DNA from: Gaiellales bacterium
GTDB lineage: Bacteria > Actinomycetota > Thermoleophilia > RBG-16-64-13
Length of the DNA: 64,000 nucleotides
NCBI GenBank assembly: GCA_012719395.1
Contig: JAAYAL010000008.1
Coordinates: 1 to 64,000 of the forward strand
Direction of reading: 5' to 3'
The position numbers were made by a program, and so were the translations under genes. This document shows, in pieces, positions 17,965 through 22,512 of the stretch. Position 1 is the stretch's first letter. Every line of letters begins with the position of its first letter. The notes under the pieces were generated by a model. The model worked only from the letters and a program-made list of their open reading frames with translations, searched no databases and was not told where the DNA came from.

Positions 17965-19164
17965 CTACGCCCACGCCTTCACCCGCCGCGCCGCCTCGCG
18001 GCCGTACTCCTCGCACGCGGCCAGGTTCTCCTCCGTGGGCACGAAACGAAAGTCGATGGGCGGCAGCACCTCCAGGTTCATGGCCCTCAGCGTGGCATCG
18101 ATCTCGCGCGTGGCGCCACCGGCCCACCCGTAGGAGCCGAAGGCCCCGGCGAGGCGGTTCTTGGGACGCAGACCTTTGAGGTAGGTGAGGAACTCACCTA
18201 CCGTGGGAAACATGCCGTTGTTGAGCGTGGGCGACCCCACCAGGAAGCAACGCGACTCCTGCACCAGCCGCACGCACTCCGCCAGGGGCGTGGACGACAA
18301 GCGCAGGATAGTGGTTTCCACACCCTCCTGATTGGCACCGTCCGAGATGGCCGCCGCCATCTTCTCCGTGGAGTGCCACATGGTGTCGTAAATGAGGCAG
18401 ATGCGCGGCTTGGCCTCGAAACGCGACCAGGCCAGGTACGCCTCGATGATGGCGTCGATATCCTCGCGCCGCCGCCAGATCATGCCGTGGCTGGGCCCAA
18501 TGACGTCGATCTGCAGACCCAGGTCCACCACCTTCTGGATCTGCTTGATGATCTGCCCGGAGAAGGGCATGAGGATATTGGCGAAGTAGGTGACCGCCTC
18601 CTCCATGACCACGTTCATGTCGTTCTCGTCGGCGAAGCGGCGGGAGCCGGCCAAGTGCTGGCCGAAGGCGTCGTTGGGCAGGAGGACGTGCGGTTCCTTG
18701 ACGTAGGTGAACATGCTCTCCGGCCAGTGCAGCATTGGTGCTTCCAGGAAGGAGAGCGTGTAGGCGCCCAGACCGAGGTCGTCGCCCGTGCCCACGATGA
18801 GGTAATCCCAGGCGGCGGCTTCGGCTCCGTAATGCATCTCCAGGGCTTCCTTGCCCCGCTTGCTGGTGACCACTTTGCCGGGCTTGAGTTCCGCCACCAG
18901 CCAGGGAAGGGAGCCGGAATGGTCGGGCTCCACGTGGTTGACGATAAGGTAGTCCACGGCCTGCCCGCAGCAACCCCGCACGCGACGCACCATCTCCGGA
19001 CCGAAGCCGGAGCGAACACCGTCCACCACGGCCACCTTTTCATCCACGATCAGGTAGGAGTTGTAGCTGCTGCCGCGAGGCGTCCCGTAGCCGTGGAACT
19101 CACGCACATCCCAGTCCACGGCGCCCACCCAATAGATGTTGGGAGCCAACTCCACTCTCTGCAT
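17965..19164 (-). CDS. fprA: FprA family A-type flavoprotein (flavo-diiron O2/NO reductase)
   Basis: This 399-residue enzyme joins a metallo-beta-lactamase domain (residues 1-250) to a flavodoxin domain (about 255-395). Diiron ligands are visible in NHVEPDHSG (His77, Glu79, Asp81, His82), with further ligands in DAFGQHLAG and GPSHGMIW. The FMN-binding loop is IYDTMWHSTEKMA. Such proteins reduce oxygen to water or nitric oxide to N2O in anaerobes, protecting against oxidative or nitrosative stress. ATG 19164 follows GGAGGAAGGAG. It is a single-gene unit or is expressed with the upstream methyltransferase (24 bases away). The usual rubredoxin partner is not in the window. Confidence 0.93.
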   Translation of the reverse strand: MQRVELAPNIYWVGAVDWDVREFHGYGTPRGSSYNSYLIVDEKVAVVDGVRSGFGPEMVRRVRGCCGQAVDYLIVNHVEPDHSGSLPWLVAELKPGKVVTSKRGKEALEMHYGAEAAAWDYLIVGTGDDLGLGAYTLSFLEAPMLHWPESMFTYVKEPHVLLPNDAFGQHLAGSRRFADENDMNVVMEEAVTYFANILMPFSGQIIKQIQKVVDLGLQIDVIGPSHGMIWRRREDIDAIIEAYLAWSRFEAKPRICLIYDTMWHSTEKMAAAISDGANQEGVETTILRLSSTPLAECVRLVQESRCFLVGSPTLNNGMFPTVGEFLTYLKGLRPKNRLAGAFGSYGWAGGATREIDATLRAMNLEVLPPIDFRFVPTEENLAACEEYGREAARRVKAWA

Positions 19165-19188: not shown

Positions 19189-20202
19189 CTACCCCAGCGG
19201 GCTCCTTGCCAGCAGCAACTGGTTGCTGCCGTGAGCGAGGTCCTGGATGTCCACGTCCTCCAACCCGGCTTCTGCGAACCAGGCGCGGTAATCCCTTTCA
19301 CGCCAGACGCCACCTTCCAGCGTGGCCTGCAGCATGTTGACAGCGAAGAGCGCCGCCCGTGCGCTGCGCTCCCAGACGAAGTCCACCGCGGCCACCACGC
19401 CCCCGGGGGCGAGCACCCGGCCTGCGCGCACCAGCAGGTCCCGGTTCCGCGCCGGCCCGTATATATGGAAGATATTACCGAGAAAAACCAGATCGTACGG
19501 TCCCGCCGGGAGCTCTCTCAGGAAATCGCAGGCACAGAAGTCCATGCCGGCAGCCACTGCGCCCAGTTTCTCCCTGGCCAGTTCTATCACCTCAGGCATG
19601 TCCAGCAACGTGGGGCGGATACCCCTGGCCATGAACCGGGCCGACATGTGGCCCACCGCCCCACCCACGTCGAGCAGATTCCTCGGCCGGGATGGCGACA
19701 TGTAGCCGAGGATGCGATCGACCACGGCGTCGCGAGGACCCGAGGGGCCCTCGCCCATGGTGAGGGCGCAGGCCTTCTGGTCCTTCTTGGCCCGCAACGC
19801 CGCCCGCTGACGACCGTGAGTGATGATGAAGGGCAGCTCGTAGAGGCTGCGTACCTTGTTCGACTGATGGAGCAACCAGTTGCGCTCAAGCTCCGGCCCA
19901 GGGTCCACCAACCGTTGGCGGCCCAAGGCACTCAACGTGTAACGGGGACCCGGCGCAGCCACTTCGCGGGCATCGGCAACGGACCCGGCCCCCGAAGTCG
20001 GCGGGGGCTGGTCCCTTTCCGCCACACCCAGGGAGACCAGCGCCTCCAGCATCACGGCCACCGCCCTCCCATTCGCCTGGAGGGCGACGGTGGCGGCGGT
20101 GGCCGTCACGGGTCCCGCCGCCAGCACATCGACCAGCCCCGAACGCAAGGCCCCGGCCAGCACCATCAAGCGTTCCACCTGTTCCCTGTCCACCAGCGTC
20201 AC
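19189..20202 (-). CDS. SAM-dependent O-methyltransferase-like protein with N-terminal winged helix
   Basis: This 337-residue protein resembles the acetylserotonin/hydroxyneurosporene O-methyltransferase family. Residues 1-80 form a winged-helix dimerisation domain (ATAATVALQANGRAVAVMLEAL). The SAM-binding motif is NLLDVGGAVGHMSARFMARG near 200, followed by DMPEVIELAR and DLVFLGNIFHIY. The GTG start at 20202 follows GGAGGATGG. It lies between the GNAT-rhodanese gene and fprA on the same strand with short gaps (34 and 24 bases), so the three may form an operon. The methyl acceptor is unknown. All SAM-binding motifs look intact. Confidence 0.82.
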   Translation of the reverse strand: MTLVDREQVERLMVLAGALRSGLVDVLAAGPVTATAATVALQANGRAVAVMLEALVSLGVAERDQPPPTSGAGSVADAREVAAPGPRYTLSALGRQRLVDPGPELERNWLLHQSNKVRSLYELPFIITHGRQRAALRAKKDQKACALTMGEGPSGPRDAVVDRILGYMSPSRPRNLLDVGGAVGHMSARFMARGIRPTLLDMPEVIELAREKLGAVAAGMDFCACDFLRELPAGPYDLVFLGNIFHIYGPARNRDLLVRAGRVLAPGGVVAAVDFVWERSARAALFAVNMLQATLEGGVWRERDYRAWFAEAGLEDVDIQDLAHGSNQLLLARSPLG

Positions 20203-20236: not shown

Positions 20237-21064
20237 TCACTTCTCCAGCGGCAGGCCCGCCTGCACCCATTCCTCCAAGCCGCCGGCCATGTGCCTCACG
20301 TTTGTGAACTCCAAGTGTCGCAGCTTATCAGCCGCAATGGCACTGGCCTCTCAGCTGAAGCCGTTGCAGTAGAGCACGAGTGGCTCGTCCTTCTGGAACC
20401 GCCGCCGAGCTTCCCGACTCAGCGAACGGAAATCGATCCACTCCGCGCCGGGCAAATGGCCCGCCGTTCAGGGCTCGTCACCCATGACATCCACCATCCG
20501 CAGGGGTTCACCCCGCTGCAACGCGGCCCGGACCTCCTGCACTCCGACCAGCCCCACGCCGGGCCGGCCTGCCGGCGGATCATAGAAGACCAGGTACGCG
20601 GCGGCCGTGAAGTAGTCTGACCGGCGGAAGAGGTCGATCGACCGCTGGTCCCGCATGTCCACCACCGAAGCCGGCGAGCAACCCGCCTTCTCCACCACCC
20701 TTCCAGCGGCGTGGATGGCCCACAACACCTCTGCTTCGGCCCGGTGGGACGCCATCACCTGAATGACGGTATAGACGCCGCCCGGGGCGTCCTCGTGGGC
20801 CACCAGGCCCACCACCTCCTCCCACTGGGTCAACACCCACCACAGACCCAGCCGCGCAAATTGGTCGATCTCCTCCAGCGAGGGAGCCTTCTCCCCCTCC
20901 TCGTGCCACAGCAGCTGATGTGCTGCCTCGAGGTGGTCGAAGTCGAGGGGGACCAAGTCCAGCCCCGGCAGGGGCGACGGGGGGTGCACGGCCCTGGCTG
21001 CCATCACGGCCTGGGTCATCTCCACCTGCAGGCCGCTCGTGAGGAGAGAGGTCTGCACCAGCAC
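20237..21064 (-). CDS. GNAT-rhodanese fusion with two in-frame UGA codons, candidate selenoprotein
   Basis: One open frame on the minus strand is interrupted only by UGA at 20468-20470 and 20351-20353 before its TGA at 20237. Residues about 20-165 look like a GNAT acetyltransferase fold ending DLFRRSDYFTAAAYLVFY. Residues about 175-275 are a rhodanese domain: RMVDVMGDEP-UGA-TAGHLPGA, then LVLYCNGFS-UGA-EASAIAADKL and HMAGGLEEWVQAGLP. The second UGA replaces the second Cys usual in this rhodanese subgroup, four residues after the catalytic Cys, and a 6-bp hairpin follows it. The first UGA is not at a usual Cys position. Selenocysteine insertion is likely for the second; a nonsense mutation is possible for the first. 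The GTG start at 21064 is uncertain. Confidence 0.7.
20320..20335 (-). promoter_or_regulatory. Candidate bacterial SECIS hairpin after second UGA of the rhodanese gene
   Basis: On the minus strand GCGGCT and AGCTGC form a six-base-pair stem (one G-U pair) with a GATA loop, starting 15 bases after the UGA at 20351-20353. The distance and the G at the first loop position fit the loose bacterial SECIS rule. Confidence 0.45.
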
Positions 21065-21180
21065 TCATCGCTGCGCACCGGATAGGCGCGCGGTTGGAGC
21101 TGCTCTCTGACGAGGTCGAAGGCATCACCGTAGCAGCAGGTAGAGTCACCCGCAACCGCTGGGGTCAGCCTCACGCCGTC

Positions 21181-21189
21181 TGGTACAGT
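21181..21189 (+). promoter_or_regulatory. Extended -10 promoter element of the MATE gene
   Basis: TGGTACAGT, an extended -10 (TGn-TACAGT), lies nine bases before the ATG at 21199. Transcription would begin at or just before the start codon, implying a very short or absent leader. No strong -35 is visible. Confidence 0.45.
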
Positions 21190-21198
21190 GGCGCTCTT

Positions 21199-22512
21199 AT
21201 GACCTCCCGCATCACCCTGGGCTCCCGCGACCGCAACATCCTGCACCTGGCCGTTCCGGCTCTGGGCTCCCTCGCCGCCGACCCTCTCCTCTCCATGGTG
21301 GACACCGCACTGGTGGGCCACTTGGGCGTGGCGCCGCTGGCCGCTCTCGCCATATCCGTGGTGGTGTTCAATCTGGCCTTCATGGTGTTCAACTTCCTGG
21401 CCTATGCCACCACCGGCCCCGTGGCACGACGCCTGGGCTCCGGGCGGGCGGAGGAGATCCCCGCCTTCGCCGCCCAGGCCCTGTGGCTGGCCCTGCTTCT
21501 GGGCATAGCGGGCACGGTCGCAGCGGAAATCGCCGCCGAGCCGCTGGGGAGGCTGGTGGGAGCGCAAAACGAGGTCCTGGCCCTATTCCTCGCATACTTC
21601 CGCATCCGCATCCTGGCGCTGACCCCGCTGCTGATCACTCTGACCGGGCACGGGCTCTTCCGCGGGCTACAGGACACCCGCACGCCCCTCTTCATCACCG
21701 TGAGCGTCAACACCCTGAACGGCCTCCTTGCCTATTTCCTCATCTACCCGGTGGGATTGGGCGTGCGGGGCGCCGCCATCGCCACGCTTTCCGCCCAATC
21801 GGTGGGCGCCCTGCTCTTCCTGTGGCGCGCGACGCGGCGCCTCAAACCGCTGGCCCGCCCCGGGGTCTGGCGGCCCAGGGGCGCCCCCATGCGCGAACTT
21901 CTCCGCCTCAGCCGCGACCTGGCCTTCCGCACCATTGCCCTATATGGAACCTACTTCCTCTCCACCACCGCCGCTACCCGCATGGGAACCGTGGAGGTGG
22001 CCGCTCACCAGGTGGCATTGGACCTGTGGATGTTCCTGGCCATGGTCGTGGATTCTCTGGCCATCGCCGGGCAGGCCCTGATCGGGCGACACCTGGGCCT
22101 GGGCCAATCTGCAGAGGCGCGGGCCATCGGCGTCCGCACCCTATGGTGGAGCGTGGGAGCCGGAGCGGTGCTGGGGCTGGGTTACTGGCTGATGCGGGGA
22201 CTGCTGCCCCGTATCTTCACCAGCGACCCCCAGGTGCTGGCAGGTATCGCTTTGGCCTTCCCCTTCGTGGCCGCGCTGCAGCCACTCAACGGCTACGTCT
22301 TCGCCTTGGACGGAATTCTCATCGGTGCTTCCGATACCGGATACCTGGCCAGGTGGATGACGGTCAGCGTGGCGGCGGCGGCGGCGATCATCCTGCTGGC
22401 GCTATGGAATGACTGGGGATTGCAGGGGATATGGGCGGGATTGGCCCTGCTCATGGCGGGCCGAGGCCTGACCAACAGCCTGCGCTTCCAGAGCGGGCGC
22501 TGGGCCCGCTGA
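21199..22512 (+). CDS. MATE family multidrug/metabolite exporter (DinF-like)
   Basis: This 437-residue transporter has 12 predicted membrane segments in two similar halves. Family motifs include LAVPALGSLAADPLLSMVDTALVGHLG at the N-terminus, FRGLQDTRTPLFITV after the sixth helix, and GTVEVAAHQVALDLW in the second half. DinF-type MATE proteins export cationic or organic substrates in exchange for H+ or Na+. The start is ATG 21199, where homology begins; the frame is open further upstream, but that stretch overlaps the divergent GNAT-rhodanese gene. The promoter element sits just before the ATG. A GC-rich hairpin overlaps the stop codon. The substrate is unknown. Confidence 0.9.
   Translation: MTSRITLGSRDRNILHLAVPALGSLAADPLLSMVDTALVGHLGVAPLAALAISVVVFNLAFMVFNFLAYATTGPVARRLGSGRAEEIPAFAAQALWLALLLGIAGTVAAEIAAEPLGRLVGAQNEVLALFLAYFRIRILALTPLLITLTGHGLFRGLQDTRTPLFITVSVNTLNGLLAYFLIYPVGLGVRGAAIATLSAQSVGALLFLWRATRRLKPLARPGVWRPRGAPMRELLRLSRDLAFRTIALYGTYFLSTTAATRMGTVEVAAHQVALDLWMFLAMVVDSLAIAGQALIGRHLGLGQSAEARAIGVRTLWWSVGAGAVLGLGYWLMRGLLPRIFTSDPQVLAGIALAFPFVAALQPLNGYVFALDGILIGASDTGYLARWMTVSVAAAAAIILLALWNDWGLQGIWAGLALLMAGRGLTNSLRFQSGRWAR

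Follow-up and report, generated by a model that had tools for sequence, protein, structure and literature searches.

A probable recently decayed selenoprotein gene in a Gaiellales bacterium and a candidate family of tandem GNAT-like/rhodanese selenoproteins

We analyzed a GNAT-like/rhodanese locus on the minus strand of a 64,000-nucleotide stretch of Gaiellales DNA (the whole stretch is called the window below). The locus is very probably a recently decayed orthologue, i.e., a pseudogene, of a selenoprotein gene. The intact relatives of this window copy probably constitute an undescribed selenoprotein family of one Thermoleophilia family, with tandem GNAT-like domains, a rhodanese domain, and a Cys-x4-Sec loop, encoded beside a methyltransferase and, in most cases, a flavodiiron protein and engaged in sulfane-sulfur or oxidant handling; the window would then hold a selenoprotein loss caught while the selenocysteine (Sec) codon and its hairpin survive. 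The new element is apparently the parent family, with its tandem GNAT-like/rhodanese architecture and CxxxxU loop, and not the window copy.

The locus, its relatives, and its neighbours

Translation of the minus strand from 21064 to 20237, with UGA read as a residue, gives a single frame with two in-frame UGA codons and a terminal UGA (...DVMGDEP-U-TAGHLPGAEW...VLYCNGFS-U-EASAIAADKLR...GLPLEK-UGA). The open stretch of the pseudogene (20240..21064, minus strand), which is 59% identical to the orthologue L010, starts inside GNAT-like domain 1, runs on through GNAT-like domain 2 and the rhodanese domain, and is interrupted by the two UGA codons. A profile search places the rhodanese domain (PF00581, 46 bits against a gathering cut-off of 22) at residues 176-268. 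This range spans both UGA codons, as the sequence-only reading of the same DNA had claimed. The loop Cys codon (20366..20368, minus strand; residue 233, position 1 of the loop in YCNGFSU) is invariant in the alignment of relatives. The natural stop UGA (20237..20239, minus strand) lies 3' of the rhodanese domain, and the relatives terminate close to this point, by TAA, TAG, or TGA. The source genome is a MAG of 2.43 Mb in 92 contigs, 98% complete.

A search of 61 genomes yielded 11 clear relatives, which belong to several genera of the same bacterial family. Nine of them are full length, one (G007) is cut off by a contig edge and lacks just the N-terminus, and one (G004) is a fragment; no closer relative of the same genus was present among the 61 genomes. 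Scanning of 84,980 species genomes returned 11 loci, apparently the same set, all from Actinomycetota (MAGs, several of them labelled Thermoleophilia). In searches of 399 genomes from the class and 397 from the phylum, long matches stayed within the same bacterial family, and matches beyond it covered just the rhodanese part.

The full-length relatives are 380-402 aa long and have two GNAT-like domains in tandem, followed at the C-terminus by a rhodanese domain (PF00581, 53-62 bits against a cut-off of 22). Their active loop has the form C-x4-Sec, mostly CN[DG][YF][TSG]U. Pfam matches to GNAT domains are weak and below cut-off. The GNAT fold is found in an AlphaFold model of L010 (pLDDT 84, pTM 0.64), which matches 3iwg (E 5.7e-16, TM 0.80 by target), 1ozp (TM 0.65), and other tandem GNAT structures; the C-terminal part of the model matches rhodaneses. 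The acetyl-CoA pyrophosphate loop [QR]xxGx[GA] is absent from the GNAT-like domains of nine of the ten relatives, and the sole match (L016) is at a non-conserved place. Since this loop is missing, it is improbable, judging from their sequences, that the GNAT-like domains act as ordinary acetyltransferases. The earlier description of the locus as a GNAT-rhodanese selenoprotein is supported for the family but not for the window copy, which we regard as a pseudogene, and its GNAT part is to be understood as a GNAT-like fold without the acetyl-CoA motif.

The genes around the window copy are intact. The divergent neighbour encodes a MATE-family transporter (21199..22512, plus strand; TIGR00797, 292 bits over cut-off), which is in the same place at the L047 locus. 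The next gene downstream encodes a class I methyltransferase (19189..20202, minus strand; PF00891), and a methyltransferase gene is also downstream in all 11 relatives. It is followed by a gene of a flavodiiron protein with ODP beta-lactamase and flavodoxin domains (17965..19164, minus strand; PF19583, PF00258). A flavodiiron gene is also downstream in seven of the 11 relatives (L047, L050-L055), and some of the other contigs are too short to tell. With these methyltransferase and flavodiiron neighbours, the family may act under stress from oxygen, NO, or sulfur.

Two UGA codons of different origin

The second in-frame UGA (20351..20353, minus strand; residue 238) lies five residues after the loop Cys. 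At this site of the alignment (YC-x4-U) ten relatives have UGA, and the eleventh, L018, has the Cys codon TGT. The relatives thus share a single in-frame UGA site, and one homologue has Cys as its counterpart. UGA 20351-20353 is a Sec codon in origin, which agrees with the proposal of a Sec codon at the second-Cys position (YCNGFS-U) followed by a SECIS-like hairpin. L018 (G001:C67) alone among the relatives has Cys instead of Sec, yet SelB is encoded in the same genome; this suggests a Sec-to-Cys replacement, or the reverse, inside the family.

Bacterial SECIS elements typically have loops that start with G. Folding and comparison of the relatives revealed a SECIS-like hairpin (20318..20337, minus strand) that starts 13 nt past the second UGA and is formed by eight base pairs with a GAUA loop (UUGCGGCU-GAUA-AGCUGCGA). 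At this fixed distance from the UGA, all 11 UGA copies including the window copy have a hairpin whose loop starts with G. The stem is 7-8 bp long, with eight pairs and the GAUA loop in the window copy and most relatives; the G004 hairpin has one U-U mismatch. Thus the hairpin and its G-starting loop, both reported from the sequence alone, are real, but the stem has eight pairs, not six, and begins 13 rather than 15 nucleotides after the UGA.

The stem encodes the conserved peptide IAADKLR, and therefore its conservation alone is weak evidence. For the same reason there are no double compensatory changes: no pair is altered on both sides among the UGA copies. A pair-shuffle control was uninformative as well, so the case for the hairpin rests on controls with slid partners, on the Cys homologue, and on codon choice. 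Pairing was found in 95.5% of cells, compared with 27-53% with slid partners. In the Cys homologue L018, GAC and AGG stand instead of GAT and CGA, the stem is broken, and the hairpin is lost. The codons GAT and CGA account for 11 of 11 uses in the stem versus 26% and 8%, respectively, elsewhere in the same genes. As the sequences are related, this bias cannot be given an exact probability. Codon choice is stronger evidence for the hairpin than conservation alone.

The first in-frame UGA (20468..20470, minus strand; residue 199) has a different history. The aligned codon is TGG (Trp) in all ten relatives that cover the site, and neither Cys nor UGA occurs there in the homologues. Because the aligned residue is an invariant Trp, this is not a Sec site. 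By the same alignment UGA 20468-20470 is a nonsense change and not a second Sec codon, and a single base change from TGG to TGA suffices to produce it. The sequence-only reading had left two options, a Sec codon combined with a nonsense change, or two Sec residues. The former is borne out and the latter is contradicted; Cys, which had been put forward as the residue to look for in homologues at both positions, is present at the second (in G001) but not at the first. A reassignment of UGA to Trp throughout the genome was also considered and rejected. In a sample of 17 long ORFs from the window, 11 end in TGA, which makes it a normal stop here, and it also terminates several members of the family.

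The genome of the window copy has the Sec machinery, namely SelA, SelB, SelD, and tRNA-Sec, and the genes for SelA, SelB, and tRNA-Sec are together on contig C20. SelD and one FdhA of this genome have in-frame TGA codons in the Sec motifs where these are expected, and hairpins accompany both. The genomes of seven of the ten UGA-carrying relatives encode SelB; the search detected none in G004 (76% complete), G013 (64%), and G007 (93%, 320 contigs). A gene for formate dehydrogenase alpha on the same contig as the window, outside it (G000:C51:110687-112696), carries a TGA in frame where Sec is usual (ARTUHAPTVAGLA), together with a hairpin.

In the intact relatives, SelB and tRNA-Sec would read the UGA as Sec with the aid of the hairpin 13 nt downstream. 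Cys at position 1 and Sec at position 6 would be in one loop and most likely make a thiol/selenol pair. The Cys would carry sulfane sulfur as in rhodaneses, with the Sec as its redox partner, and the pair would take up and release sulfane sulfur or cycle through a selenenyl-sulfide.

Probable decay of the window copy

The GTG at 21064, which had been taken for the gene start, does not hold as such: homology extends upstream to 21132 in another frame, and the full-length relatives are about 105 residues longer. A tblastn search with the relatives detected the upstream remnant YGDAFDLVREQLQPRAYPVRSDEC of 24 codons (21061..21132, minus strand; E 2e-7 with L010). The offset between it and the main frame is equivalent to the loss of one nucleotide near 21060. 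Between the remnant and the MATE gene lies a deletion junction (21133..21198). The distance from the MATE start to a conserved Tyr is 67 bp in the window versus approximately 422 bp in L047. Thus a net loss of approximately 355 bp relative to the orthologous locus has cost the gene its start codon and about 80 codons, along with most of the spacer. The loss is local, since the order of the MATE, GNAT-like/rhodanese, methyltransferase, and flavodiiron genes is the same in L047. A frame that is intact apart from the Sec codon was found in L010-L017; the window copy has a lost start, a frameshift, and the Trp-to-UGA change. The lost start and the frameshift had escaped the sequence-only reading. 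A genome search found no second copy of the gene in the same genome.

Among the residues that are invariant in the other relatives, 12 of 60 are changed in the window copy versus 2 of 62 in its sister L010 (Fisher p 0.004). An acceleration of the rate in the window copy is partly supported: relative-rate tests gave p<0.05 with four of the nine outgroups, and the tree branches are 0.37 versus 0.33. Such mixed results fit a recent decay.

In this reading, a deletion took away the start and the first ~80 codons, a 1-nt frameshift parted the remaining upstream coding sequence from the rest, and the codon of the invariant Trp changed from TGG to TGA. Translation would halt at this first UGA, and no complete rhodanese domain would be produced. 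The Sec codon and the hairpin would persist as fossils.

One counterpoint to decay is that the frame from 21064 is open except for the first UGA, with the second UGA and the hairpin intact. Single-base lesions in a MAG sequence could be errors, and a MAG in 92 contigs with the open frame and the hairpin otherwise kept is what one would see if the gene were intact in the living organism and all lesions came from sequencing or assembly. We consider this unlikely. It requires a base error, an indel error, and an assembly loss of 355 bp in one gene with both neighbours intact and the ancestral order preserved, and it leaves the changes at 12 of the 60 invariant residues to be accounted for.

Still less probable is a shortened protein that is expressed from GTG 21064 or from a start downstream and consists of GNAT-like domain 2 alone up to the first UGA. 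There are indeed 198 stop-free codons, in a GC-rich sequence where chance stops are rare. But no ribosome-binding site is obvious by eye before GTG 21064, the frame begins inside domain 1, and the product would be without the rhodanese domain that defines the family. A two-Sec rhodanese with both UGA codons decoded is hardly credible at all, even with the Sec machinery in the genome and some hairpin folding downstream of the first UGA: that position is an invariant Trp (TGG in ten of ten) and never Cys, the fold after it is unremarkable (z -1.3), and the gene has no start of its own.

Comparison with known rhodanese selenoproteins

Passages of PMC13188914 list five forms of rhodanese selenoproteins, forms 1-5, with the motifs UxxS, UxxG, CxU, UxxG, and UxxxxU. 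Passages of the review PMC9312934 also cover such motifs, and those of an earlier survey (PMC1088965) include a rhodanese-related selenoprotein with no motif given. As presented in those passages, forms 1-5 share with the parent family a PF00581 domain, Sec in or near the active loop, and prediction from UGA conservation. The parent family differs from them in its CxxxxU loop, with Cys at position 1 and Sec at position 6, and in two GNAT-like domains in front. Neither a CxxxxU form nor a GNAT fusion is mentioned in the passages of the three sources.

Among the known families, TsoB (NF045694, rhodanese/DsbD fusion-like) is likewise a fusion, and the second Sec of its UxxxxU motif corresponds in position to the Sec of the parent family, provided that the registers agree. 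It has Sec at both positions and another partner domain, in contrast to the CxxxxU loop of the parent family. The relatives score 26-34 bits with its profile against a cut-off of 805 and are outside TsoB (28 bits in the membership comparison). Rhodanese_LYCAU (NF041203) is, like the parent family, a rhodanese with optional Sec, but its Sec is two residues past the Cys, going by its CxU motif, rather than in a CxxxxU loop. Here the scores are 32-39 bits against a cut-off of 115, again outside the family (37 bits). No NCBIfam model reaches its cut-off. The tandem-GNAT proteins (3iwg; MshD mycothiol synthase, 1ozp) resemble the predicted L010 model in having two consecutive GNAT folds. Their identity to the parent family is 13-16%, and the latter is without the acetyl-CoA loop in nearly all relatives and has an attached rhodanese.

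The open literature searched contained no paper that combines rhodanese, GNAT, and selenocysteine; most subscription papers and preprints were outside its reach. For Thermoleophilia, rhodanese, and selenoprotein together, the search found one soil meta-omics paper, which was judged unrelated.

Single-domain rhodaneses from other Actinomycetota (match regions L023, L076, L077, L078, and L081) have UGA at the same CxxxxU position (YC[HWY]D[YT][QL]-U-D[ML]SPRAA). A strong hairpin comes after it, and the 3-nt loop of this hairpin starts with G. By their sequences they are apparently a second CxxxxU rhodanese selenoprotein group. In another Actinomycetota family, the rhodaneses L079 and L084 have UGA in YCSN[YF]N-U-H; SelB is encoded in their genomes, and the hairpin is less clear.

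An apparent two-Sec rhodanese thus gives way to a better-supported object, a selenoprotein family confined to one lineage, in which both the rhodanese loop motif and the domain fusion are new. The intact members of this family would be cut at the UGA by standard gene callers. The window copy would provide an example of the death of a selenoprotein gene by deletion, frameshift, and nonsense change, in which the SECIS-like hairpin persists and the genome keeps its Sec machinery.
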